40,250 nucleotides of DNA, taken from positions 1 through 40,250 of the forward strand of contig CALVBT010000003.1 in NCBI GenBank assembly GCA_944325885.1, in the 5' to 3' direction. This document shows, in pieces, positions 4,649 through 40,250 of the stretch (the first letter of the stretch is position 1; each line of letters opens with the position of its first letter). The position numbers were made by a program, and so were the translations under genes. The notes under the pieces are model-generated. The model saw only the letters and a program-made list of their open reading frames with translations. It was not told the DNA's origin and did not search any database. Origin of the DNA: Candidatus Gastranaerophilales bacterium (lineage in GTDB: Bacteria > Cyanobacteriota > Vampirovibrionia > Gastranaerophilales > Gastranaerophilaceae).

Positions 4649-6765
4649 TGCAGACAGGACTTATTGCTTTCGATGCAATTGCAAAAATTAACGGAATAAA
4701 TATAGATATCCGCTCTGTAATAAGAGAATATAGTCTGAGTGATAAAGAAATCGAACCTGAGGAATTGCTCAGAATAATGAAGCAATTTGAGTTTAAGGCT
4801 AAGGTTAAAGAATTGCCTGTTGATGTTATTGCAGAAAAATATCCGCTGCCGGCAATTTTTTTGAAAAAAGATGGAGCCTATGGCGTGCTTTTAAAAATAG
4901 ACAAGGAAAAGCAGCACGCTTTAATCTATAAAGTAGAAGAAGGCAAGACTGCTGATGTTTCTTATGATGAATTATCAGAACTTACTGATAATAAATTTAT
5001 CATTCTTTCTCATAAACTTATTAATTCCCAAATAGCATTTGGTTTTAAATGGTTTTTTAATGAAATTTTGACATACAAACAGGTCATAGGCGAAGTTATG
5101 CTCGGGTCTTTTATTGTCCAGCTGTTCGGGCTTGTAACACCATTGTTTACACAGGTTATTCTCGATAAAGTTATTGTTCACAGGAGCATAATGACGCTTG
5201 ATGTACTTGCATTTGGCTTTGTTGTTGTAATGGTATTTGAACTATTGTTGAATTTTTCTAGAAAATACATTTTCTTACATACTGCTTGCAAAATAGATGC
5301 AAAACTCGGCGCAAAATTGTTTAAACATCTGTTTTCATTGCCATTTACATATTTTGAAAGCAGAAAAGTTGGTAATATTATTACAAGAGTCCGAGAGTTA
5401 GACCAGATTAGAGAATTTATTACTAACAAATCTGTTTCCGTTATTTTAGATTTGTTCTTCTCTTTTGTATTTATCATAATGATGCTGCTTTACAGTCCTG
5501 TATTAACAATGCTGGTACTAGGCTTTGTAATAGTAATAGCCTTGTTATATCTGATAATAACTCCTGAACTGCGTTCACGCCTTGAAAAGAAATTTCAGAT
5601 GGGCGCCCAATCAAACTCTTACCTTGTTGAATCGGTGACCGGTATTCAGACTGTTAAATCACTGGCAATAGAAGGCGGAATGCAAAGAAAATGGGAGGAT
5701 TATCTGGCAAAATACATAAATTCCTCTTTTAAACTTTCAAATATGGGAAATATCGCAGGAGCGCTGTCCGGTATGCTTCAAAAAGCAATGACAATCAGCA
5801 TTCTTTATTTCGGTGTAAAACTTGTTATAGATAATAAATTGACAATCGGTCAATTGATTGCATTTCAGATGTTTTCTAACCAGTTTTCAGCCCCTGTACT
5901 GAGACTTGTCAATCTTTGGAACGAATTTCAACAGTGCCTGCTCGGTGTTGACAGATTAGGCGATATTTTAAATAATCCGGTTGAAGTCCAATCCTCACAG
6001 GCAATAACTCTGCCTCAAATTCAAGGTTCTGTGAAGTTTGATAATATTTGTTTTAAATACTCTCCCAATGCGCCATATGTAATTAATAATTTTAGTTATT
6101 TCGTAAAACCCGGAATGAGTGTAGGAATAGTAGGCAGAAGCGGTAGCGGCAAGAGTACGATTACTAAACTAATTCAGCGTTTATATCTTTGTAATGAAGG
6201 GACTGCATATATTGACGGAGTCGATGTAAGACAGATGAATCCTACGTGGCTTAGGTATAATATAGGAGTTGTTTTACAAGAGAATTACTTATTTGCAGGA
6301 TCAATAAGAGAAAACATTTCACTGCCTAAACCAGATGCCCCTATTGAATTAATAATGAATGTTGCTAAAATGGCAGGCGCTCACGAGTTTATTTCAGAGT
6401 TTCCGGAAGGTTATGATACACAGGTTGGAGAAAGAGGCTCGACACTTTCAGGCGGACAAAGACAAAGAATAGCAATTGCACGTGCATTGATTACAAATCC
6501 ACGCATATTTATTATGGATGAGGCAACATCAGCCCTTGATTATGAATCAGAGAGAATAATACTTAACAATATGAGTAAAATTACAAAAGGCAGAACAACA
6601 TTTATTATTGCCCACAGACTTTCTGCTGTTAGACACTGTGATGTAATACTTGTTATGGATAAAGGCAGGATTATCGAAGCAGGCAGACATGAAGAATTAA
6701 TGCAGCACGAAAAAGGTTATTACAGATTTTTATACAGCCAACAGGAGGTTGTAAATGCTAACTAA
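4648..6765 (+). CDS. HlyB-like type I secretion ABC transporter/ATPase with C39-like domain
   Basis: A 705-residue fused permease-ATPase of the inner membrane. Residues 1-125 resemble a C39 peptidase domain, but the segment TGLIAFDAIAK has no catalytic Cys, as in HlyB, where this domain binds unfolded RTX cargo instead of cutting it. Residues about 145-440 form the six-helix membrane domain. The ATPase is complete: Walker A GRSGSGKST (496-504), Q-loop LQENYLF, signature LSGGQ (600-604), Walker B IMDEATSALD with Asp624 and Glu625, and switch His656. It starts inside the stop of the TolC-like gene and overlaps the HlyD-like gene by 11 bases, so the three are one transcript. Confidence 0.93.
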   Translation: MQTGLIAFDAIAKINGINIDIRSVIREYSLSDKEIEPEELLRIMKQFEFKAKVKELPVDVIAEKYPLPAIFLKKDGAYGVLLKIDKEKQHALIYKVEEGKTADVSYDELSELTDNKFIILSHKLINSQIAFGFKWFFNEILTYKQVIGEVMLGSFIVQLFGLVTPLFTQVILDKVIVHRSIMTLDVLAFGFVVVMVFELLLNFSRKYIFLHTACKIDAKLGAKLFKHLFSLPFTYFESRKVGNIITRVRELDQIREFITNKSVSVILDLFFSFVFIIMMLLYSPVLTMLVLGFVIVIALLYLIITPELRSRLEKKFQMGAQSNSYLVESVTGIQTVKSLAIEGGMQRKWEDYLAKYINSSFKLSNMGNIAGALSGMLQKAMTISILYFGVKLVIDNKLTIGQLIAFQMFSNQFSAPVLRLVNLWNEFQQCLLGVDRLGDILNNPVEVQSSQAITLPQIQGSVKFDNICFKYSPNAPYVINNFSYFVKPGMSVGIVGRSGSGKSTITKLIQRLYLCNEGTAYIDGVDVRQMNPTWLRYNIGVVLQENYLFAGSIRENISLPKPDAPIELIMNVAKMAGAHEFISEFPEGYDTQVGERGSTLSGGQRQRIAIARALITNPRIFIMDEATSALDYESERIILNNMSKITKGRTTFIIAHRLSAVRHCDVILVMDKGRIIEAGRHEELMQHEKGYYRFLYSQQEVVNAN

Positions 6766-21577: not shown

Positions 21578-21928
21578 CTATTTGTCTTTTTCAACAACTT
21601 TAAATCCACCCCATTTGTAGAAAGGTTGAGGTGCATAGTCTTTAGACTCGGAAATAATTTTATACATCCCATAATTAGTTAATAAGCCAATCAAAGATAA
21701 ACCAGCTGCTAATCCCCAAATAATTTTTAAATTATCTTTTCCTCGATGAAATAAAGATAATAAGCTACCAGTAAGCACTGGAAAAACAGCTGTATTAAAC
21801 AGCATTATATTTCTTTTAACGACCTTGTCTGCATAGTCTTTTGAGACAGGAGTCCCGTCTTTTTTTTGAACTTCATAGTTCTTTTTATATTTTAATTGGG
21901 TTCCAAAAGATACAGGAGTTATATTCAT
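21578..21928 (-). CDS. small membrane protein with SFG N-terminus, paralogue B
   Basis: A 116-residue protein starting MNITPVSFGTQLKYKK, with two membrane segments (about 40-58 and 68-92) between a charged N-terminal block and a C-terminal YKWGGFKVVEKD block. Both end blocks are nearly identical to those of the adjacent gene at 21925-22284, while the membrane segments differ. Start and the neighbour's stop overlap (ATGA), so the pair is one transcript. The two genes oppose the surrounding packaging and tail genes, as expected for an independently expressed lysogenic cargo. The N-terminal style is that of host (Gastranaerophilales) proteins. Function unknown; superinfection exclusion is a guess. 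Confidence 0.7.
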   Translation of the reverse strand: MNITPVSFGTQLKYKKNYEVQKKDGTPVSKDYADKVVKRNIMLFNTAVFPVLTGSLLSLFHRGKDNLKIIWGLAAGLSLIGLLTNYGMYKIISESKDYAPQPFYKWGGFKVVEKDK

Positions 21929-22284
21929 TTTGCCTCAACATCTTTTTCAACAACTTTAAATCCACCCCATTTGTAGAAGGGTTGAGGATTGAATTCTTTT
22001 AAATTTTTAGACCGTGTATAAAAGTAGTTACTCAAAAAAGCACCACCTATCATCAATGCAGCACTCATTGTCCAAATATATTTTAACATTTTTTTAGTAG
22101 GAGCAAATATAGAATTTAATATTCCAAAACTTAAAGGAAAACCTAATGTCGTAAAACCAATCATATTTCTTTTAACAATCTTATCAGCATATTCCTTGCT
22201 GACAGGAGTTCCGTCTTTTTTTTGAACTTCATAGTTCTTTTTATATTTTAATTGGGTTCCAAAAGATACAGGTCTAATACTCAT
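21925..22284 (-). CDS. small membrane protein with SFG N-terminus, paralogue A
   Basis: A 119-residue tandem paralogue of the gene at 21578-21928, beginning MSIRPVSFGTQLKYKK and ending in the YKWGGFKVVEKD block plus five residues. Membrane segments lie at about 40-60 and 70-92. It is the promoter-proximal gene of the pair; 77 bases separate it from the divergent chaperone gene. The DNA of the first 35 or so codons is almost the same in both copies, which points to recent duplication or gene conversion. I cannot assign a function. Confidence 0.7.
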   Translation of the reverse strand: MSIRPVSFGTQLKYKKNYEVQKKDGTPVSKEYADKIVKRNMIGFTTLGFPLSFGILNSIFAPTKKMLKYIWTMSAALMIGGAFLSNYFYTRSKNLKEFNPQPFYKWGGFKVVEKDVEAK

Positions 22285-22759: not shown

Positions 22760-25119
22760 TGAAAGTTTCATTAACTTTAGTCGCTTTCGACAAAATGTCG
22801 AGGGTTATTCGTGATGCTGTAAACAAATCCAATGACGAATTTGATAAACTTCAGCGAGAAATCAAAAACACCTCAGATATGTTAGACAAACTCGGGCAGA
22901 ATATGACAAAAGTCGGGGGTGCATTGACTCTTGCAGGGGGCGGACTTGCGTATAAACTTGGAATTACAGAGGCTATTCCTGAAGCATTCCAAATGGAACA
23001 CAGATTAAGGGAACTCGGCAATGTTGGACAGTTATCCGCAAAACAGCTTGAGGATATGGATAAACGTCTTGCATCTATTTCAAGATATACAAACCAGATG
23101 CGGCCTGAAATCGCAGAAGGTTTGAATGTGCTTGTTGCATCAGGTATTGATCCAACAAAAGCCCTTGATTATATGAATGTTATCGGCAGAACTGCAACAG
23201 GTGAACAAGCTGCTATTGCAGATATTTCAAGAACTGCTTTTGCCGTAAGCGATAACTTAAAAGTTCCTATTGATGATTTGGGAAAATCAATGGATATTCT
23301 TGCGATGTCAGGTAAAGAGGGACGTTTTGAATTAAAGGATATGGCAGCAGCATTCCCGAGTTTAACAGCCGGTGCTGCTATGCTAGGTATGAAAGGGACA
23401 CCTGCCGTTGCATCTTTAGGTGCTGCCCTGCAAGTTGCAATGAAAGGTGCCGGCGAGGCATCTGAGGCAGCAAATAACTTAGAAAACTTTATTCAAAAAG
23501 TTACATCTCCACTTGCAGTAAAGAACTTTGAGGAAGTTTTCGGGGTTAATCTCAAACAGGTTCTTTTAGATGCGGCCGCTCAAGGTCGTGATCCAATCTT
23601 AGAAGTAATCGAAATGATGAAAGAACTATCCGGCGGAGATGTGTTTAAGGTTTCGGAAGTCTTTCAGGATAAACAGGTTTTAAATTTCATAAAACCTATG
23701 ATGCAGAATCTTGATGAATATAAACGAATAAAAGCATCTGCATTAAGTGCCGAGGGTGTTGTTGATTCCGACTTTGAACACATGATGGAAACAACAAACG
23801 AACAATTTAAGCTCTTAAAAATTAATATGAAAGAGCTTGTATTTCCTCATCTTCATAAGCCGATAGAGTTAATAAACAATCTTCTGACAAAAATAAATAA
23901 TAATCCTTTGCTACAAAAAGGTTTATTCGGGGCGATTATAGGAACAATCGGCTTAGGAATTTTGCTTACAACGCTTGGCACTGCAACAATAATTATCGGC
24001 AAATTTGTTGGAATGTACGGAACATTTCTCAAGTACGCCAGAGATTTAACTCCTGTTTTAGTACAAAACTCTCAAAAACTTATGCAATTTTTAGGATTGA
24101 ATTTTACAACAAGCAGCGGTTTTATCGGAAATATTGCACAGCTTGATAAAAATTTGCGTAACGGATTAATTAACGGGATAAAAACTCTGCCTGCAAATAT
24201 TTCTAAGTCTTCTGCCGCTCTAAAAGACTGGACTGTAACATCAGTAAAAGCAATGCCGGCTAATTTTATAAACGGTTTAAAGGCGTTCAAAACAGGTTTT
24301 TTGAGTATTCCAAACCTAATTAAAAATGCGATAATCGCATTCAGAGCATTTTCTGTTACTTTGCTTACATCTCCTCTCGGTTGGATTGCTCTTGCAATCG
24401 GAGTTGTTGCTCTTGTTATTTACAAATACTGGAAACCGATTTCAGGATTCTTTAAAGGTATGTGGCAAGGTCTCAAAGAAGGTTTACAGCCATTAATGCC
24501 GTTATTCCAGAGAATGGGAAAAGCTCTCTCACCTATTCTGGCACCTATCAAAGCCATTGTTGATTGGTTCAAAAAACTAATAAAACCCGTTGAAGATACA
24601 GGCGGAGCCGCTGAAAAAATGGGCGTTCGATTTGGTAAAGCCATTGCTAATATAATCGTGAAGTTGGTTGAATTTGTCACTAAGGTTTTTGAATTTGGCA
24701 GGAAAATCGGTGATATGCTCGCAAACGGAATTTTATCCAAACTTGGAAAAACTAAGGAAGCAATTGCCAAGCACGCACAGATAATACGAGACCACTTGCC
24801 GCATTCCCCTGCTAAAACTGGGCCATTAAAAGATTTGCATAAAGTAAAAATAGCGGAAACAATAGCAGGAACAATTAAACCATTACCAATTGTGTCAGCA
24901 ATGAATAAAGCTTTGAATTTTGCATCAACCCCGTTTAATGCAAAAGTTGGCAATCTTAAAACAGGCGGATCTTCAGTGGTTGTTCATTACTCCCCAACGA
25001 TCACAATTTCCGGTTCTGAATCAAAAGAAGAATTTGCAAAATTACTCAGACAGCATAAAGACGAGGTTGTTTCAATTATGAAAAGAGAGAAAGAACGCCA
25101 AGAAAGAGTTAAATATTAA
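22744..25119 (+). CDS. tail tape measure protein
   Basis: A 791-residue protein of the TP901-type tape-measure family. Residues about 10-70 are coiled coil; about 75-280 is the family core (QMEHRLRELGNVGQLS, ...RTATGEQAAIADISRTAF, MAAAFPSLTAGAAMLGMKG). Two hydrophobic regions (about 390-430 and 535-562) could enter the host membrane when DNA is injected. The C-terminus has the common LPHSPAKTGPLKDL block. By the usual rule of about 0.15 nm per residue the tail would be near 120 nm (inference). GAGG precedes the ATG at 22744; an ATG four codons later overlaps the chaperone stop and is the alternative start. Confidence 0.92.
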   Translation: MLDTMMKVSLTLVAFDKMSRVIRDAVNKSNDEFDKLQREIKNTSDMLDKLGQNMTKVGGALTLAGGGLAYKLGITEAIPEAFQMEHRLRELGNVGQLSAKQLEDMDKRLASISRYTNQMRPEIAEGLNVLVASGIDPTKALDYMNVIGRTATGEQAAIADISRTAFAVSDNLKVPIDDLGKSMDILAMSGKEGRFELKDMAAAFPSLTAGAAMLGMKGTPAVASLGAALQVAMKGAGEASEAANNLENFIQKVTSPLAVKNFEEVFGVNLKQVLLDAAAQGRDPILEVIEMMKELSGGDVFKVSEVFQDKQVLNFIKPMMQNLDEYKRIKASALSAEGVVDSDFEHMMETTNEQFKLLKINMKELVFPHLHKPIELINNLLTKINNNPLLQKGLFGAIIGTIGLGILLTTLGTATIIIGKFVGMYGTFLKYARDLTPVLVQNSQKLMQFLGLNFTTSSGFIGNIAQLDKNLRNGLINGIKTLPANISKSSAALKDWTVTSVKAMPANFINGLKAFKTGFLSIPNLIKNAIIAFRAFSVTLLTSPLGWIALAIGVVALVIYKYWKPISGFFKGMWQGLKEGLQPLMPLFQRMGKALSPILAPIKAIVDWFKKLIKPVEDTGGAAEKMGVRFGKAIANIIVKLVEFVTKVFEFGRKIGDMLANGILSKLGKTKEAIAKHAQIIRDHLPHSPAKTGPLKDLHKVKIAETIAGTIKPLPIVSAMNKALNFASTPFNAKVGNLKTGGSSVVVHYSPTITISGSESKEEFAKLLRQHKDEVVSIMKREKERQERVKY

Positions 25120-32991: not shown

Positions 32992-34148
32992 TAGATATAT
33001 ACTCAAAAAAATTTTTAATGAAACAAAAAGAAACAACGCCTACACCGGAGCCGGAACCCGAACCGAATCTTGTACAAGTATTAGGAGCAGTTCCAAAAGA
33101 TTTTTCAAATGGATTTAAATATAACCTGATAAAACGTAATGACTATTTTTATATGTTATATGAAGATAGTCCCCAAAAGGGAGAGGACGATACAGAAGTT
33201 CAAAAGCTTAATTTTATATCCAGAACAAAGGATTTTAAAAGTTGGGAAGGCTCGGGTATCGGCAGCGGATATATTAGATACGATGAAACAGCAGATGCTT
33301 TCTTTTGCTCACATCTTGGTATGAGATATAAAACAAATCTTTATAACGATGTGAAATATAACATAATAAAAATCAACCCGGATGATTTTTCATATAAAGT
33401 CCAAAATATTTTGACGTCCACAATGGATATTACATCCAGAGGCATTACTCACATAGAAAGAGTTGGCAATTATTTGATGCTGCTTTGCTATATTAACAAA
33501 ACTTCAGTGTATAGCTTTTATTCATCGAATAACGGAGAAACTTGGTCATCTAAACTATTAGTAACAACTCCATCTTTTGGTATTGGCTTAGATGGTATAA
33601 AAAGTTGTTCAAATGGAAATGGAATGAAAGCCAGTATTTATTATGGATCGACAACATCATCTAGCAAGTTTTTTACTTCCCCAACGGCTTGTCAAAATTC
33701 AAGCAGTAAAGCAACAAATACAGATAGAGCCGGATATTCTAAAGGTAATAAATTGATAGGTATATCAACAAACAATGAACTGACGATAAGTACGGATGGT
33801 GTTAATGATACAAAATATCAGCTTTCAGGGAAGCTGGCAACAGAAAATGGCGTTTTCTATGGTGATTACTATATAACAGCAGCCCCAACATCAGGTGGTA
33901 ATTCAACAAAATTTGAGTATTTAGGCAAGATTATTTTACATAATTTAAAGACAAGAGAAATATTTCTTTTTGACCCTGAGCTAGATGCCGTCTCAGCGAG
34001 TTTTGGGTATTATACGTCGCAATTAAAAATATTAAATATATTTGATGATTATTTATATTTTAGTTTTGCAAAAAATGGTTCAAATTGTTCGGTTGGAAAA
34101 GTCGCAATTACAGATATATTAAACAACTTACAAAAATATACAGCATAA
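32988..34148 (+). CDS. putative beta-propeller tailspike / receptor-binding protein
   Basis: A 386-residue protein with a short basic N-terminus, a proline-glutamate linker (about 17-27, TPTPEPEPEPN) and a beta-rich remainder. S-S-N-N-G-E-T-W at 179-186 fits the Asp-box (SxDxGxTW, Asn for Asp) of sialidase-like propellers, and several short Trp/Tyr-containing strand repeats support a propeller. No catalytic residues can be assigned, so it may bind rather than cut host glycans. The linker suggests attachment to another fibre. Start ATGA overlaps the previous stop. Confidence 0.65.
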   Translation: MIDIYSKKFLMKQKETTPTPEPEPEPNLVQVLGAVPKDFSNGFKYNLIKRNDYFYMLYEDSPQKGEDDTEVQKLNFISRTKDFKSWEGSGIGSGYIRYDETADAFFCSHLGMRYKTNLYNDVKYNIIKINPDDFSYKVQNILTSTMDITSRGITHIERVGNYLMLLCYINKTSVYSFYSSNNGETWSSKLLVTTPSFGIGLDGIKSCSNGNGMKASIYYGSTTSSSKFFTSPTACQNSSSKATNTDRAGYSKGNKLIGISTNNELTISTDGVNDTKYQLSGKLATENGVFYGDYYITAAPTSGGNSTKFEYLGKIILHNLKTREIFLFDPELDAVSASFGYYTSQLKILNIFDDYLYFSFAKNGSNCSVGKVAITDILNNLQKYTA

Positions 34149-34171
34149 CTTGGAAGTTAGAAAGGATAATA

Positions 34172-34609
34172 ATGATAGAGTTTGTGAAAATGCTTTCAGA
34201 AACGTTAATTGATCATGCACCTGTAAATAAAGGCTCAATAATAAATTATAACCTTGATGAAGAAGCATTAAAAGCAGATGGGTATAAACCTTTGATAAAG
34301 GCAGAATACCCTAACAATAGTAGACTTTATAGACTTAAATACAGAGAAGACGAATTATTTGTCTATGAAATTATAGACTATTTAGAAACCGAAGACAGCT
34401 TTAACACAAGGATTGCAGAAGAAGATTATGAACTGGAATGCGACAGAATAATTTCTTTAATTAATGATTTCGACCTAAAAAGAATACGAGCTATGTGTGA
34501 ACCTGCAATTAAAAATGCAGAAACAGGTGAGACATGGCTTGATTTCTATAATTCCAAAATCGTTGCATTAAGAAATGAATTGAAAGGGCTAAAAAAAGAT
34601 GTTAAATAG
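34172..34609 (+). CDS. hypothetical protein downstream of tailspike
   Basis: A 145-residue acidic protein from the ATG at 34172 (MIEFVKMLSETL), with AAAGGA before it. It contains a small mixed domain (about 30-80, rich in Tyr and Leu) and a helical C-terminus with DYELECDRIISLINDFDLKR. No family is recognised with confidence; the position after the fibre genes and the helical tail would allow a fibre chaperone. It overlaps the endolysin gene by 11 bases. Confidence 0.6.
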   Translation: MIEFVKMLSETLIDHAPVNKGSIINYNLDEEALKADGYKPLIKAEYPNNSRLYRLKYREDELFVYEIIDYLETEDSFNTRIAEEDYELECDRIISLINDFDLKRIRAMCEPAIKNAETGETWLDFYNSKIVALRNELKGLKKDVK

Positions 34610-35138
34610 AAAACTTTGTGGACACTGGACAGCCGGAACATATAATCCCTGTGCTGATGACATTTCAGCATACCATTATTTAGTTGATGGTACAGGTCGA
34701 ATCTTTAAGGGTAAATATAAAATCGAAGATAATGATAACTGTTATGATGGCAAATATGCAATGCATTGCGGCGGAGGTAATACTGGCTGCATAGGTATTG
34801 CTATGTGTTCAATGGCAGAGTTCGATTTAAAAAATAAAAAAACTAAATATCCAATAACGCCCAAACAATATGAATCCTTTTGTGCATTAGCTGCATATCT
34901 TTCGATTAATTACGGGATACCCAATATAAATACTAGAATCTTTACTCATGCGGAGTTTGATAAAAGAAAAGCAAAACCTGAAGGAAAAATCGATATTTTG
35001 TATCTTCCGTTCGCACCTCAGATTTCTGCAACTAAGATTGGCAATGAGTTCAGAAAAAAAGTGGGTTGGTATAGAGACCAATTTAAAAAAGGTAAGAAAA
35101 AGTTTGTTAAGAAAGGAAGTCACTATGAAATTATCTAA
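34599..35138 (+). CDS. N-acetylmuramoyl-L-alanine amidase (endolysin)
   Basis: A 179-residue amidase of the Amidase_2/PGRP family, which cuts the bond between muramic acid and the peptide of peptidoglycan. Likely zinc ligands are His9 (GHWTAG), His117 (FTHAEF) and Asp132 (GKIDIL). The Y-H-Y-L-V-D-G-T-G-R strand and GGNTGCIGIAMC block are typical. The last 30 residues are strongly basic and may bind the envelope. There is no signal peptide, so release needs a holin, possibly the small membrane protein at 19217. The start lies inside the preceding gene. Confidence 0.88.
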   Translation: MLNRKLCGHWTAGTYNPCADDISAYHYLVDGTGRIFKGKYKIEDNDNCYDGKYAMHCGGGNTGCIGIAMCSMAEFDLKNKKTKYPITPKQYESFCALAAYLSINYGIPNINTRIFTHAEFDKRKAKPEGKIDILYLPFAPQISATKIGNEFRKKVGWYRDQFKKGKKKFVKKGSHYEII

Positions 35139-35412
35139 CTTTAAAGAGTCAAAATTTTACAATTTTATCAGCAAGATAATTGAACCGTTAATTTTTAAAA
35201 TTATTGAAAAGACAGCTCCGGCGGCAATTACCAAATTGAATACAATTTTTGAAAAATTCTCGCAGCCTGTTATTGATTTGCTGTTCAGATGTAAAACAAA
35301 AGCCAAAGAAACAGAAACAACATTAGATGACTTTTTGTTTACTCAAGGAGTAAATGAGATTGAAAAATTTGCAAATTATTTGCAGGAAAAAGTACAACAA
35401 CTTCGTGCATAA
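35125..35412 (+). CDS. hypothetical helical protein after endolysin
   Basis: A 95-residue protein from the ATG at 35125, with AAAGGAAG before it and a 14-base overlap with the amidase gene. It starts MKLSNFKESKFYNFISKIIE and is amphipathic and helical with no clear membrane segment, then has an acidic C-terminus. Many lysis cassettes have a small helical protein here, but I see no holin or spanin feature. Function unknown. Confidence 0.55.
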   Translation: MKLSNFKESKFYNFISKIIEPLIFKIIEKTAPAAITKLNTIFEKFSQPVIDLLFRCKTKAKETETTLDDFLFTQGVNEIEKFANYLQEKVQQLRA

Positions 35413-35422
35413 GGAGAGTTCA

Positions 35423-36046
35423 ATGTCTTGGAGAGATAAAATCAACATAATGAATACAAAATTTGGTTTTTATTATTCTTCAAACAAATACGGCATACCA
35501 GATATTATCCCGGATGAGTTCGATGTAAAAGAACTCATCCCGTATCGGGTAGATTCCAACAGAAACGGAACCGCACACTTTTTCTTAGATGATTACAGAT
35601 TCGAGAGGTGTTGGAATCATCCGTATAGACAACTTGAAGAACTAAAAAAATATGACGGAGTCTTATCTCCTGATTTTTCCTTGTATACAAATTACCCTGA
35701 AGCAATGCAAATTTGGCAAGTTTACAGAAACCGTTGGTGTGCTAGGTATTGGCAGAATGAGGGAATAAAAGTTATTCCGACAATCAGTTGGTCAAATGAA
35801 TCCAGTTATAAGTACGCATTCCTGGGTATTCCTAAAAATTCTGTTGTTGCAATCGGTACGGTTGGAGTTGTTAATGACAAAAACGCTGAAAGACTCTTTA
35901 TGCAGGGCTTTAAAGAAATGTTAAAACAACTTGAACCCATTCGTATTTTGATTTATGGAAACAAACTGGCAGACCTAGAAGGATATAAAAATCTTCAGTG
36001 GTTTGAGCCATATACAAACAAATGGAATAAAAAGAAAGGCAGGTAA
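35423..36046 (+). CDS. DUF4417 family protein
   Basis: A 207-residue protein from the ATG at 35423, preceded by AAGGAGAG. It shows the complete DUF4417 pattern: AHFFLDDYRFERCWNHP, DGVLSPDFSLYTNYP, QIWQVYRNRWCARYWQ, VIPTISWS, GIPKNSVVAIGTVGV and a final ILIYGN. The family is widespread in phages and mobile elements of Firmicutes and gut bacteria and has no established function. The conserved F-L-D-D-Y-R and S-P-D-F-S-L-Y motifs look catalytic or ligand-binding. It is followed after two bases by the first MGGRGSGGS protein, an association seen repeatedly in mobile elements. Confidence 0.85.
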   Translation: MSWRDKINIMNTKFGFYYSSNKYGIPDIIPDEFDVKELIPYRVDSNRNGTAHFFLDDYRFERCWNHPYRQLEELKKYDGVLSPDFSLYTNYPEAMQIWQVYRNRWCARYWQNEGIKVIPTISWSNESSYKYAFLGIPKNSVVAIGTVGVVNDKNAERLFMQGFKEMLKQLEPIRILIYGNKLADLEGYKNLQWFEPYTNKWNKKKGR

Positions 36047-36048
36047 AA

Positions 36049-36393
36049 ATGGGCGGCCGAGGATCCGGAGGAAGTAAAAATGGCGGCGGTACTGTTTCCA
36101 AAACTATAGAAACAGCAAAGCCAGAAGTAAAAATAAAAAAGGGAACACCTTTTTTAAAAAATTTAAATGATTATCAAGAATCTAAAGCATTGAAAGAAAA
36201 AACACTCAGAGATATTGAAAAATTACAAAAACGGACAAATTGGTACGGAGATAAAAAATTAAATGCGATAAAAGAAAGATTACAACGCACATCTCACTTT
36301 GATTTTGAAGATGTATTAATTTTAGCGGATAGATTTTTTAATTATAAACCTCAATATTTAAAAACAGTCCGTTGGATGGTGAGAGGTTACTAA
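36049..36393 (+). CDS. MGGRGSGGS-type phage protein, first copy
   Basis: A 114-residue protein. Residues 1-15 (MGGRGSGGSKNGGGT) form a Gly-Ser-Arg arm that is shared with the next gene; the rest is basic and helical, with a compact C-terminal block (HFDFEDVLILADRFFNYKP). Such Gly-rich starts occur next to DUF4417 genes in other phages. An RNA- or DNA-binding arm is possible given Arg and Gly content. Function unknown. Confidence 0.65.
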   Translation: MGGRGSGGSKNGGGTVSKTIETAKPEVKIKKGTPFLKNLNDYQESKALKEKTLRDIEKLQKRTNWYGDKKLNAIKERLQRTSHFDFEDVLILADRFFNYKPQYLKTVRWMVRGY

Positions 36394-36410
36394 AGAAAGG
36401 AGAACATATT

Positions 36411-36965
36411 ATGGGAGGACGTGGTTCAGGCGGAAGTCGTGGCGGTGGTGGTGCAAGCAAATCTATTGATGCAAAAACCGAAAATAAATTGAACTCATTG
36501 TTAAATCAATCATATAAATATGATGACGAGGCTTATGAATTTTCAAGAAGAGCTGCATCTGAAAGAGCTATGGCAAAAAGGTATAAACAACTCGGCAGAA
36601 AACAATTAGCCCAAAATTATACTCAATATGCAAAAGAAGCTCAAGCACGAGCGGATAAAGCAAAAATTAAAGCTAAGCAATATCTAGATGAGGCATCTAA
36701 ACTTGCTAGTAAAAAGATTCGTGATATTCCAAGGACCTATCAATATAAGGGTGAAAAGGGTGTAAGGACTGTATATAAAAGCCCTCAGAATGCTAGAAAA
36801 GCTTACGAACAATCAAGACAAAATTTAGTCAGCACTGCATACCGAGACCATCCAACCATTGTAGAATCACCAAAAGGCGGATATAGCGTAATGCCTCATG
36901 GTATAGCAAAATTAAACAAATTAAAAGAAATAAGCCCATATAGTATTGATATGGGAAATTCTTAA
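36411..36965 (+). CDS. MGGRGSGGS-type phage protein, second copy
   Basis: A 184-residue protein from the ATG at 36411 with AAAGGAG before it. It repeats the Gly-rich start (MGGRGSGGSRGGGGAS), then has a long Ala/Lys/Arg/Gln helix (about 30-110) that is very likely coiled coil, and a C-terminal part with a proline-containing segment and GGYSVMPHGIAKL. The two MGGRGSGGS proteins share only the arm, not the body. Unknown role; the arm may be a targeting or docking tag. Confidence 0.65.
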   Translation: MGGRGSGGSRGGGGASKSIDAKTENKLNSLLNQSYKYDDEAYEFSRRAASERAMAKRYKQLGRKQLAQNYTQYAKEAQARADKAKIKAKQYLDEASKLASKKIRDIPRTYQYKGEKGVRTVYKSPQNARKAYEQSRQNLVSTAYRDHPTIVESPKGGYSVMPHGIAKLNKLKEISPYSIDMGNS

Positions 36966-37059
36966 TTGTGTCTTAATGATACCGAATTAGGAGCAATGAC
37001 TTCTAATTAATTCTCTTTAGAGCGATGAATGTGGTTGTTAAGAAATAAAGGAGGTCATT
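36966..37059 (+). promoter_or_regulatory. repeated intergenic leader, copy 1 (GTGTC-N5-GATAC)
   Basis: GTGTC (36968-36972) and GATAC (36978-36982) flank five bases and can form a 5-bp stem with one G-U pair. A second hairpin follows (36985-36993 with 37000-37008, nine pairs, one G-U, six-base loop). The pyrimidine-rich TTCTCTTTA just after it can pair with the ribosome site TAAAGGAGG. GATAC ends 77 bases before the start at 37060. Confidence 0.6.
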
Positions 37060-37860
37060 ATGACAGAAACAATCACAGCAACGGAAGTTTTAAAAAGCAG
37101 ACAAAACTTCTCAGATTACATTGAACAAAATGCCGATTCGGTAATCCAAAATTTACTCAAAGATTATCCTTCCCGACCGTTACAAATTATTTATCCACAG
37201 CTTACACAAAGCTCAGATGGTTTAATGGAAATTGTAAAACAATTAGAGGGTAATCAAAAAGCGTATATTTTCTGGTTTATCGTAAACGAGAAACCAGATA
37301 TAAAAAATATTGCAATGACTTTAAATCATTATTTTGATAAAAATTACTGTGGAGTTTTTATCATTAAAGCGGTTATAAACGGAGATAAAATAGAGTTTGA
37401 ACCCATTTTGAAACCAGAAGCACCCACCAAACAAATCCGCAATGAAAATACTCCTGCCAAACTTTTACAAAAAGCATACTGGGAAAAATATTTTGAAATA
37501 TGTGATGGACTTCAAAGTGATATGCAAGTAAATCCGGCTCCGCAGCATTATCAATATATTTCAATAGGTAAAAAGGGCGTTCAGATAATGCAGACAGTGA
37601 ATACAAAAGACAAGTATATTGCAACGGAAATATTTATAGCCAACAACAAAAATATATTCAATAAACTTCTTGAAGATAAAAAAGAAATTGAGGAAAAGTT
37701 AGGCTATCTTGACTGGCAAGCATTAGACGGAAAAAAATCTTCAAGAATTCGTCAAATATTGAATTATGACGTGTCAGATGAAAATCAACTGGAAAAAGCT
37801 GTCAAAGACCATATAAAAATGGCAGAAACATTTAAAGAAACTTTTAAAAAGTATTTATAA
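37060..37860 (+). CDS. DUF4268 domain protein
   Basis: A 266-residue protein. Residues about 145-265 match DUF4268: a helix with YWEKYFEICDGL, then YQYISIGKKGVQIMQTVN, the KDKYIATEIFIANNKNIFNKLLEDKKEIEEKLG block and a final TFKETFKKYL helix. This domain is often found at the C-terminus of nuclease-like proteins and near restriction or defence genes. The N-terminal 130 residues have alternating strands and helices and could be part of a small nuclease-like fold, but I see no complete active-site motif. AAAGGAGG precedes the ATG. A terminator follows, so it is a single-gene unit. Confidence 0.75.
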   Translation: MTETITATEVLKSRQNFSDYIEQNADSVIQNLLKDYPSRPLQIIYPQLTQSSDGLMEIVKQLEGNQKAYIFWFIVNEKPDIKNIAMTLNHYFDKNYCGVFIIKAVINGDKIEFEPILKPEAPTKQIRNENTPAKLLQKAYWEKYFEICDGLQSDMQVNPAPQHYQYISIGKKGVQIMQTVNTKDKYIATEIFIANNKNIFNKLLEDKKEIEEKLGYLDWQALDGKKSSRIRQILNYDVSDENQLEKAVKDHIKMAETFKETFKKYL

Positions 37861-37882
37861 GGGGGATAATGCCCCCTTTTTT
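37861..37882 (+). terminator. intrinsic terminator after DUF4268 gene
   Basis: GGGGG-ATAATG-CCCCC followed by six T begins at the base after the stop codon. Confidence 0.85.
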
Positions 37883-37933
37883 AAGCCCAATCGGGTAATA
37901 GACACGTGAATAATAAAGGAATAGGATTGAACT

Positions 37934-38188
37934 ATGAATCAGAAAATTATTATAAAAAATAAAAGAACACGTGAACAATTGGAATTAAGCCTGCCGGAAT
38001 TTAAAGAAAAATTTAAGGCAGAAATAACCATAGCCCTTGACAACTTCAAAGCTCAAGAAAGCAGAAAAAACTTTTTGCCTCCATTTATCAAGTCAAATAA
38101 TAATTTTGAATCGGATTTCTATTTCAATCTGCGTTGGAATTTTAATAACCTACAAAATTCAAACTGGTATATTGAACGCATCCATTAA
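37934..38188 (+). CDS. hypothetical small protein
   Basis: An 84-residue protein starting MNQKIIIKNKRTREQLEL, with a basic N-terminus, a helix (ELSLPEFKEKFKAEITIAL) and an aromatic C-terminal half (DFYFNLRWNFNN, NWYIERIH). It follows the terminator at 37861 and does not have the GTGTC-N5-GATAC leader of its neighbours, so it needs its own promoter in 37883-37933. AAAGGA lies before the start but at long distance. No family is recognised. Confidence 0.55.
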   Translation: MNQKIIIKNKRTREQLELSLPEFKEKFKAEITIALDNFKAQESRKNFLPPFIKSNNNFESDFYFNLRWNFNNLQNSNWYIERIH

Positions 38189-38286
38189 TTAATGTGTCTG
38201 ATTGATACGAAATGTCTGCAATGATTTCACATTCATCAGGTCTGGAGGAATGAATGTCATTGTAGACATTTAAAGGAGATTAAATT
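38189..38286 (+). promoter_or_regulatory. repeated intergenic leader, copy 2, with 22-pair hairpin
   Basis: GTGTC (38194-38198) and GATAC (38204-38208) again flank five bases. Directly downstream is a long hairpin: 38210-38223 pairs with 38258-38271 (one G-U), then after a five-base bulge 38229-38236 pairs with 38250-38257, leaving a 13-base loop. The ribosome site AAAGGAG (38272-38278) begins at the foot of the stem. GATAC ends 78 bases before the start codon at 38287. Confidence 0.7.
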
Positions 38287-38514
38287 ATGAATGAAGAACA
38301 GAAACTCGAAAAAAATTATTTAAAATTTATTGACGGACTTGAAAAATTATCCCAAAAATATGGATTTGCAATTCAAGCATGCGGCTGTTTTTACTTTGAT
38401 GCAAATGGTTTTCAGAATATTGAATATGTTCGTGATTTATCAAGCGGTGATATAGATATCAGAACATTAATATTTAATGACGGAACAAAACTTGGTGAAC
38501 GTGAAATTTACTAA
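38287..38514 (+). CDS. hypothetical small acidic protein
   Basis: A 75-residue protein starting MNEEQKLEKNYLKFIDGLEK with AAAGGAG before the ATG. A helix is followed by strands GFAIQACGCFYFD and NIEYVRDLSSGDI. The middle resembles the 71-residue protein at 39493 (KL-x-x-x-A/Y-x-x-x-G...EYV-x-D), so the two may be distant relatives. No known family. Confidence 0.55.
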   Translation: MNEEQKLEKNYLKFIDGLEKLSQKYGFAIQACGCFYFDANGFQNIEYVRDLSSGDIDIRTLIFNDGTKLGEREIY

Positions 38515-38532
38515 AGAAAGGGACATACAGTG

Positions 38533-38742
38533 ATGAAGACAAATAAAGAACAATTAATCGAAAATACAAAACAAGCCTCTCCTGAAAGAGTAAAAGAACA
38601 CTTACTAGAAATAATTCAAGATTTAGTTGAAAATGAACAAATTACAGCTGGATATGACAATGGCTACATTGATAATGACGACGGTGTACCAATTTTGGAC
38701 TTTTATATTGATAATTTTATGTTTACAAACTTTTCTCAATAA
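38533..38742 (+). CDS. hypothetical small acidic protein
   Basis: About 69 residues from the ATG at 38533 (a GTG one codon upstream is possible). A helical first half (KEHLLEIIQDLVENEQ) is followed by an acidic end with GYDNGYIDNDDGVPILDFYID. It lies 18 bases after the preceding gene and probably shares its transcript, which ends at the hairpin 38791-38824. Small, acidic and without a family; such proteins in phage accessory regions are sometimes inhibitors of host defences, but nothing here proves it. Confidence 0.5.
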   Translation: MKTNKEQLIENTKQASPERVKEHLLEIIQDLVENEQITAGYDNGYIDNDDGVPILDFYIDNFMFTNFSQ

Positions 38743-38790
38743 TATTTAACAATAAATTAGCAATGACTAATATAGCAAATAACTGACAAG

Positions 38791-38824
38791 AAGCGTTGAT
38801 GAAATTAAATCAACGCTTTTGTTT
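38791..38824 (+). terminator. intrinsic terminator after the two small acidic genes
   Basis: AAGCGTTGAT / ATCAACGCTT (38791-38800 and 38809-38818), a perfect 10-bp stem with an eight-base loop, is followed by TTGTTT. The next leader element starts right after it. Confidence 0.75.
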
Positions 38825-38921
38825 AATGTGTCGCAATGATACGAAAGAGAAAGATTTACTTCTCTTTCTTTGCATTCAGAGTAATTAATATCAATGTAGA
38901 CAAGCAAAGAAAGGTTAAATT
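38825..38921 (+). promoter_or_regulatory. repeated intergenic leader, copy 3, with alternative hairpins
   Basis: GTGTC (38828-38832) and GATAC (38838-38842) flank GCAAT. GAAAGAGAA (38843-38851) pairs perfectly with TTCTCTTTC (38860-38868). Four bases of that second arm also belong to TTTCTTTGC (38865-38873), which pairs over nine bases with GCAAAGAAA (38904-38912) next to the ribosome site AAAGG. The two hairpins compete. GATAC ends 79 bases before the start at 38922. Confidence 0.65.
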
Positions 38922-39389
38922 ATGGCAAAGAAAATTTTAAAAACACAAAACAAAGAATATGGATTTTGGGGAACAACTGAGCTTAATTACACCAATAAAG
39001 AAACACAAGATAGATGGAACGATGCTTTTGAAATTTTAGTTCAATTATCAGGTAAGTCTCCAGAATCAATAAGAGAATATTTGGATAGCCCCTCTGGACG
39101 TCATTTAGCTGATGAGTGTTATGGAAACAATGTCAAAGCTACGATATTAAGTAACTATTATAAATATTACGAAAAAGACTTATTTGGTGACAGAACAAAG
39201 ATAATAAAACAAAAAGATAAAACAATGTTCGGAACATTAGTTCTTAACAAAATAACAGGAAACAAAGACGTTCTTTTGTACACTTATAAAAATCCAAACA
39301 GAATTAATAAAGACTATGCAACCTGTATCGATATTAATGAGCAGATATATGATATCGGATTGGATTTTATAATTCCTATAGAAGAATAA
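38922..39389 (+). CDS. hypothetical protein with GFWGT / GRHLADE motifs
   Basis: A 155-residue protein. The N-terminal domain has YGFWGTTELNY, a W-N-D-A-F helix and SIREYLDSPSGRHLADECYG. I have seen this G-[FY]-[WY]-G-T ... L-D-S-x-x-G-R-H-[LF]-A-D pattern in short uncharacterised proteins of plasmids and phages. The C-terminal half (about 95-155) is beta-rich. It has its own leader with competing hairpins and is followed by another copy of the leader, so it is probably a separate regulated unit. Function unknown. Confidence 0.6.
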   Translation: MAKKILKTQNKEYGFWGTTELNYTNKETQDRWNDAFEILVQLSGKSPESIREYLDSPSGRHLADECYGNNVKATILSNYYKYYEKDLFGDRTKIIKQKDKTMFGTLVLNKITGNKDVLLYTYKNPNRINKDYATCIDINEQIYDIGLDFIIPIEE

Positions 39390-39401
39390 TATCTATAAAA
39401 T

Positions 39402-39492
39402 CAAATATGTCGTAATGATACAAAACATTAGATTTATTAGGTATTTTAACACTTGCAAGGTAACATCTTAAAAAACAAGGAGGTTACACAAG
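39402..39492 (+). promoter_or_regulatory. repeated intergenic leader, copy 4 (ATGTC-N5-GATAC)
   Basis: ATGTC (39407-39411), GTAAT and GATAC (39417-39421) repeat the core with one change. GATAC ends 71 bases before the start at 39493. The downstream hairpins are weaker: GGTAAC (39459-39464) can pair with GTTAC just after the ribosome site AAGGAGG, placing that site in a loop. Confidence 0.5.
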
Positions 39493-39708
39493 ATGAAAAA
39501 TAAAATCATACAAACACAATATGATTTTGAAGAAGTCACTACAAAATTACAGGATATTGCAGAATTCCACGGAATTGTATTAAGAGGACAAATGGAATTT
39601 TATGAACAAGTCGTTTCCGCAGAATATGTTTTTGATATAAAAAATAACTTATTTTATCCTAGGTATATTGCATCCATCGCACAGCCAAAGAGAATACGGG
39701 GATTGTAA
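39493..39708 (+). CDS. hypothetical small protein
   Basis: A 71-residue protein starting MKNKIIQTQYDFEEVTTKLQ with AAGGAGG before the ATG. Helix plus strands (GIVLRGQMEFYEQ, AEYVFDIKNN) with a basic end (QPKRIRGL). The middle resembles the small protein at 38287. It is the last rightward gene and is closed by the terminator at 39750. No known family. Confidence 0.5.
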   Translation: MKNKIIQTQYDFEEVTTKLQDIAEFHGIVLRGQMEFYEQVVSAEYVFDIKNNLFYPRYIASIAQPKRIRGL

Positions 39709-39749
39709 CTAACTTGCTATTTCACAGGCATGCAAGTAGTATCAACATG

Positions 39750-39777
39750 AGAGCGGAACCTCCCACCGCTCTTTTTA
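39750..39777 (+). terminator. intrinsic terminator closing the rightward region
   Basis: AGAGCGG (39750-39756) pairs with CCGCTCT (39766-39772) across a nine-base loop and runs into a T tract (39772-39776). The stop codon of the convergent gene follows at 39778-39780. Confidence 0.85.
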
Positions 39778-40250
39778 TTAAAATTCAATGTTTGAGTCGC
39801 TAAGTTTTGTTTCAATTATCGAAATAATTTCGTTCCACCATTCTGTATTTTGTAAATTTTTATCTTGTATTAAAATCCTTGAAAGAGTATATTCTTGTCC
39901 TCGTTTAATATTTGACCTACTAATTGTTTCGATTAAATCCTTTAATATTGCATCCCTGGCTGCTGCTTCAATATTATTAATAATCGACAATACAGAATTA
40001 ATACATTGACCCTTATATCGAATTTCATTATTTTCATTAACAAAAACTTCAAATATAATACCTTTAAGAAAATTAACGGGCCACGAATAAATATCTTGAG
40101 ATTCAATAAAGTCACGAGCTTTAAGCTCACTACCCTCAGCTGTTTGCAATACATTTCGACCTAATTCAATTTGTTTGTCTATTGATAAATTTTTAATAGT
40201 ACTCTTTTTATTTATCAGTGCCAAAATAGCAGGTGATTGAACAGGCCAGG
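39778..40250 (-). CDS. hypothetical protein, 5' end beyond window
   Basis: The minus-strand frame is open from the TAA at 39780-39778 to the right edge, giving at least 157 residues. Although a TTG at 40224 could start it, the frame continues upstream with WPVQSPAIL, so the gene probably begins outside the window. Visible sequence: NLSIDKQIELGRNVLQTAEG, SWPVNFLKGIIFEVFVNENN, a helix with NNIEAAARDAILKDLIETI, and a C-terminal region with NTEWWNEIISIIETKLSDS. It is mostly helical and soluble. No family recognised. It converges on the accessory island and marks a strand switch, perhaps toward the early region of the prophage. Confidence 0.6.
   Translation of the reverse strand, partial: WPVQSPAILALINKKSTIKNLSIDKQIELGRNVLQTAEGSELKARDFIESQDIYSWPVNFLKGIIFEVFVNENNEIRYKGQCINSVLSIINNIEAAARDAILKDLIETISRSNIKRGQEYTLSRILIQDKNLQNTEWWNEIISIIETKLSDSNIEF

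Follow-up and report, generated by a model that had tools for sequence, protein, structure and literature searches.

The GTGTC-N5-GATAC cores that recur before accessory genes in the window (the whole stretch of 40,250 nucleotides analysed here) form the left block, block A, of a ~70-bp module that also contains TTnAnn and GATKAATGT blocks. We interpret this module as a sigma70-type promoter with an imperfect-dyad activator site near position −61, governing a regulon of mobile-element accessory genes, and we assign this reading a probability of roughly 0.83. The module, its internal spacing, the genes that it precedes and the terminators that abut it can all be read directly from the DNA, whereas the transcription start, the binding of an activator to block A and the direction of its effect are predicted from the sequence pattern. 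In mechanistic terms, block A (TGTGTC-N5-GATACr), centred ~61 bp upstream of the predicted start, would be the site of a dimeric activator, and TTnAnn and GATKAA, 17 bp apart, would act as the −35 and a poor −10 of a sigma70-type promoter. The bound activator would touch RNA polymerase from a class-I-like position and switch on the gene behind. A preceding terminator would often insulate that gene, as happens with phage 'morons'. Placed before many unrelated genes, one such module would then define a regulon of accessory genes, and of some transposase genes, across Mu-like prophages and related elements.

Four copies in the window

The first-pass annotation described four copies of the core. 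Those at 36968, 38194 and 38828 are exact, but the one at 39407 carries a mismatch (ATGTC for GTGTC). The core is indeed a real element, but it had been drawn too small, the conserved unit being the ~70 bp that include it. The distances from GATAC to the next ATG (77, 78, 79 and 71 bases) agree with those given earlier. Pairing between the arms is complete only in RNA, by way of a G-U pair; as DNA, the arms form an imperfect dyad (GTGTC versus GTATC). The window contains five matches to the core at no more than one mismatch, against a mean of 0.92 and a maximum of 4 in shuffled sequence (0 of 100 shuffles reach five). The fifth match, at 23387 on the minus strand, is isolated within a gene region and lacks the other blocks.

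In all four copies the module elements, the genes directly behind them and the associated terminators lie on the plus strand. The −35-like hexamers were placed from the sequence and a 17-bp spacing rule, and the −10-like hexamers of copies 2 and 3 from the sequence and a position weight matrix (PWM) scan. In copy 1, block A is the imperfect dyad TGTGTC-N5-GATACC (36967–36983; PWM score 23.5), followed by a −35-like TTCTAA (37001–37006) that lies 17 bp before a −10-like GATGAA (37024–37029), itself followed by TGT and identified from the logo, the PWM and the spacing rule. Transcription is predicted to start at about 37036. The gene behind this copy (37060–37860) encodes a DUF4268 protein matching the PADLOC candidate defence family PDC-S11 (E 3e-24), and is followed by an intrinsic terminator recognised in the sequence, GGGGGATAATGCCCCC then a T-run (37861–37882).

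Copy 2 comprises block A at 38193–38209 (PWM score 32.0), TTCACA at 38226–38231 and AATGAA at 38249–38254, and precedes a 75-aa accessory gene (38287–38514) with weak CdiI_4 similarity, below the cut-off; the next gene occupies 38530–38742. An intrinsic terminator seen in the sequence and in the terminator scan (38791–38824) ends directly 5′ of copy 3, which has block A at 38827–38843 (PWM score 29.0), TTCTCT at 38860–38865 and AATTAA at 38883–38888, and is followed by a GFWGT-type gene (38922–39389; phrog_8020). Copy 4 (TATGTC..GATACA, 39406–39422; sequence and PWM scan) precedes a 71-aa gene (39493–39708) and keeps the core only. Its downstream blocks are not recognisable, and it scores 31.5 bits versus 68–74 for copies 1–3. 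Elsewhere in the window (21578–22284), identical copies of GGTTCCAAAAGATAC at 21899 and 22255, 356 bp apart, lie across two adjoining small genes, which suggests a tandem duplication.

Architecture of the module

In a weighted logo of 126 distinct copies, information is concentrated in three blocks, with the intervening positions nearly free. The blocks read TGTGTC-NNAAT-GATACrAAA (block A), AATgACTTgAaaTT (block B) and GAGTGATTAATGT..aTGtA (block C). The same logo shows no strong conservation and no conserved promoter 5′ of block A, and no TATAAT-like −10 at a fixed place elsewhere in the module. Sigma70-type promoters have −35 and −10 hexamers 17 ± 1 bp apart and start transcription ~7 nt after the −10. 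The module conforms in its spacing: in 123 of the 126 copies, a hexamer that begins with TT stands exactly 17 bp ahead of GATKAA. Among spacers of 11–25 bp, the match to TTGACA is best at 17 (3.85 of 6 positions; the next best is 2.96). GATKAA itself departs from TATAAT at −12, −9 and −7, with G at −12 and A at −7.

Block A lies 40–41 bp upstream of the TT hexamer, and 10 bp further away in one lineage. Across 272 genomes, the span from TGTC to AATGT is either 62–64 or 74 nt and never shorter, and backwards controls gave 0. The 74-nt form belongs to a single lineage of transposase promoters, in which an insertion of 10 bp separates block A further from the −35, so that any argument from helical turns rests on one event. 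An apparent 21-bp shift of block A in locus L277 was dropped, as the right arm is in place and the left arm has been replaced.

The module begins 1–5 nt past the preceding stop codon in most phage copies. In 14 of 110 copies, copy 3 included, a terminator-like hairpin with a T-run precedes block A and ends no more than 22 nt from it; weighted, hairpins lie against block A in 13.8% of copies versus 0–3% at control positions. Because these terminators abut block A, the genes behind them need a promoter inside the module. Start codons are found as near as ~10 nt past the −10 hexamer (loci L272, L238 and L270), too near in L272 and the transposase copies for a leader to fit. We judged by eye, and set aside, the idea of a conserved leader peptide that begins in the GATKAATG block, because the reading frame is not maintained.

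These features bear on the two alternatives offered by the first-pass annotation, an operator/promoter or a structured 5′ leader RNA, of which the former is supported and the latter is not. A leader acting as a riboswitch or through antitermination or translational control, with GUGUC-N5-GAUAC as its first helix and a variable second hairpin, seems improbable to us. The first helix can pair in most copies, and several copies (L001, L063, L138 and the window copy at 38188) fold far better than shuffles; among the strong folders, the plus strand has a slight edge in stability over its complement. Against this, the block A stem has no compensatory changes among 126 distinct sequences, and variants at its five core pairs keep the pair in ~10 cells and break it in 12. 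RNAalifold gives no consensus second helix, and the pairing register differs from copy to copy. The length is nearly fixed, terminators abut the 5′ edge of block A with no conserved promoter upstream of it, and the region 34000–40250 of the window has no Rfam match. Consensus folding, covariation, a covariance model and shuffles yielded only idiosyncratic hairpins. The promoter reading, for its part, must accommodate the ~20% of copies with strong inverted repeats, which a plain promoter does not need. Between blocks A and C, z falls below −2.5 in 21% of copies (weighted) versus 1–4% in flanks; the repeats fall in at least three registers and are somewhat more stable as plus-strand RNA. One possibility is that they serve as secondary operators overlying the −35 region.

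Two variant arrangements were also observed. In L280 (own genome, C18), blocks B and C occur without block A at 6362 and 7317, in two near-identical repeats by HigBA-like genes, and a different upstream sequence occupies the place of block A. In classes X and Y (e.g. L226, L228 and L242), about four direct GTTTAA-like repeats with ~11-bp spacing lie directly upstream of block A and are likely sites of a second regulator.

Distribution and candidate regulators

Searching related prophages for the core and building a covariance model from the matches, as had been proposed, recovered many further copies upstream of genes, which supports a shared control element. A strict pattern scan (core plus GATKAATGT) picks out 5 viral contigs and 45 from genomes, on many of which two to four exact copies precede different genes. 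Of 286 genomes from the order, 124 carry the module according to the covariance model R1, which was built on 61 copies and has a 5-nt-loop stem as its sole structure; they represent 29 of 50 genera and hold up to nine modules apiece. Across the class, a sample of 240 genomes has 62 positives, all from the window's own family; the order sample adds three positive genomes from two other families. The phage collection yielded no DUF4268 homologue (tblastn) and no real match to the module.

The earlier remark that the copies precede unrelated genes extends to many unrelated families across the order. Genes behind the module include DUF4268 and GFWGT-type genes, at least six small families, Mu-like transposases (assigned by Pfam) and a serine recombinase (named from its sequence). 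In the window's own genome, the four other near-matches to block A lie in coding sequence, making an ordinary host regulon unlikely. We also note that chromosomal Mu-like or defence-rich islands (L276, L277 and L281, the last being C19 of the own genome) carry the module with small genes of families X, Y and Z, and encode a type I restriction subunit, Mrr, AAA ATPases and a probable McrC. Another stretch, L169, has probable serine recombinase and ParB-like genes and, alongside them, the accessory cluster and modules found in the Mu-like phages.

Recognition of block A by a phage factor is plausible. The prophage in the window is Mu-like, with Mor/C-family, GemA, MuB and MuA genes just beyond the window. 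The Mor/C-family gene (contig C3, 41580–41873, equivalent to L285, 11581–11874; minus strand) lies 1.3 kb past the window, last in a Mu-like early operon (MuA, MuB, GemA) oriented towards the accessory cluster; its place after GemA is that found in Mu. Its product matches PF08765 at E 2e-4 and 21.8 bits, below the 24.9 cut-off that several relatives exceed, and the profile of Mor-like proteins has weak similarity to the structures of Mu C (9l0x, E 0.006) and Mor (1rr7, E 0.34). Together with gene order, these matches place the gene adjoining the cluster in the Mor/C family, as judged from sequence.

A narrower form of the promoter reading would have this protein turn on the accessory genes in the middle or late lytic phase by binding block A. 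This is contested; the protein is our leading candidate, yet a tentative one, and we consider the role rather less likely than not. A Mor/C-family gene lies 0.5–2 kb from most phage clusters, last in a Mu-like early operon (GemA, MuB, MuA), although this adjacency may just reflect phage gene order. A close Mor subfamily co-occurs with strong copies (22 of 29 genomes versus 3 of 243). The profile, however, had been seeded close to modules, which favours co-occurrence, and the association may reflect one phage lineage. Genomes with weaker copies have a Mor homologue no more often than copy-free ones (19 of 92 versus 27 of 151; p 0.6), and the stretches examined of L169, a serine-integrase prophage, and L306 contain the cluster and no Mor gene. 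Moreover, the recognition helices of Mor vary and block A is constant, and the 5-bp spacer, the site near −61 and the −35-like hexamer are unlike Mu Mor sites.

An opposite sign of control would follow if block A were the operator of the elements' small XRE repressors, keeping accessory genes silent in the lysogen. Such a family is encoded upstream of or divergent from MuA, and in the transposase class the module lies between the XRE gene and MuA. We nevertheless regard this as unlikely: a site near −61 is a poor place for repression, a PWM scan finds no module at the XRE–MuA promoter of the window's own prophage, and the XRE gene is absent from some loci within the stretches examined. Least probable of all, and by our estimate very improbable, is a recombination or transposition site such as a Mu end or an attC-like cassette junction. 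Copies do sit directly after stop codons and separate unrelated genes, and block A resembles what we take to be MuA end sites. However, scanning twelve loci with the PWM gave no more than one good block A per module and none clustered at element ends, on which grounds a MuA end site was rejected; all copies of one cluster point the same way, with a fixed, promoter-like spacing.

It is also conceivable, although we think it unlikely, that the module is an activator-dependent promoter code common to rival elements, namely Mu-like phages, serine-integrase prophages and chromosomal Mu-like transposons carrying defence islands. If so, elements that lack an activator of their own could respond to the induction of, or infection by, a phage that has one. 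The activator, if found, would show how accessory genes are timed in these Mu-like phages, and whether the same signal serves the transposons that carry defence genes. For an order of gut bacteria that has received little study, the module provides a signature by which accessory genes of mobile elements can be searched, and it brings short proteins whose function is unknown together in one regulon.

Comparison with known systems

An activator-dependent phage promoter is a known kind of element. As far as we searched, neither the motif and its position nor its occurrence across both phages and defence-carrying transposons has a precedent, and the open-access literature holds nothing on such a promoter in these hosts.

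The closest parallel to the promoter reading is the Mu middle promoter Pm with its activator Mor, and the late promoters with C. The Mor element of Mu is 16 bp, centred at −43.5, with two 5-bp inverted repeats and a 6-bp spacer, and replaces the −35 (PMC4390567). In both systems, a Mu-like phage carries a sigma70-type promoter whose dyad consists of two 5-bp inverted repeats; a Mor/C-family gene in the same phage accompanies most of the present phage clusters and is lacking for many other copies. The layout of the present module is different: a 5-5-5 bp dyad centred near −61, a −35-like hexamer, and a location before accessory genes, also in elements without Mor.

At class I activator-dependent promoters, such as those with CRP at −61.5, the activator site shifts only by whole helical turns. 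The module resembles them in the distance of its site, about six turns of the helix upstream, and in the displacement of exactly 10 bp seen in one lineage, but the sequence and odd-length dyad of block A do not match CRP sites. LysR-type regulated promoters have a T-N11-A site near −65 and a second, activation site near −35. The module has a TGT-N11-ACA dyad at about the former place, a likeness of pattern only; no LysR-type gene was noticed by the elements and a second site is not evident. Finally, the accessory genes are like phage morons in that each stands alone, has a promoter of its own and often follows a terminator, but here one conserved promoter family is common to many morons over an order of hosts.
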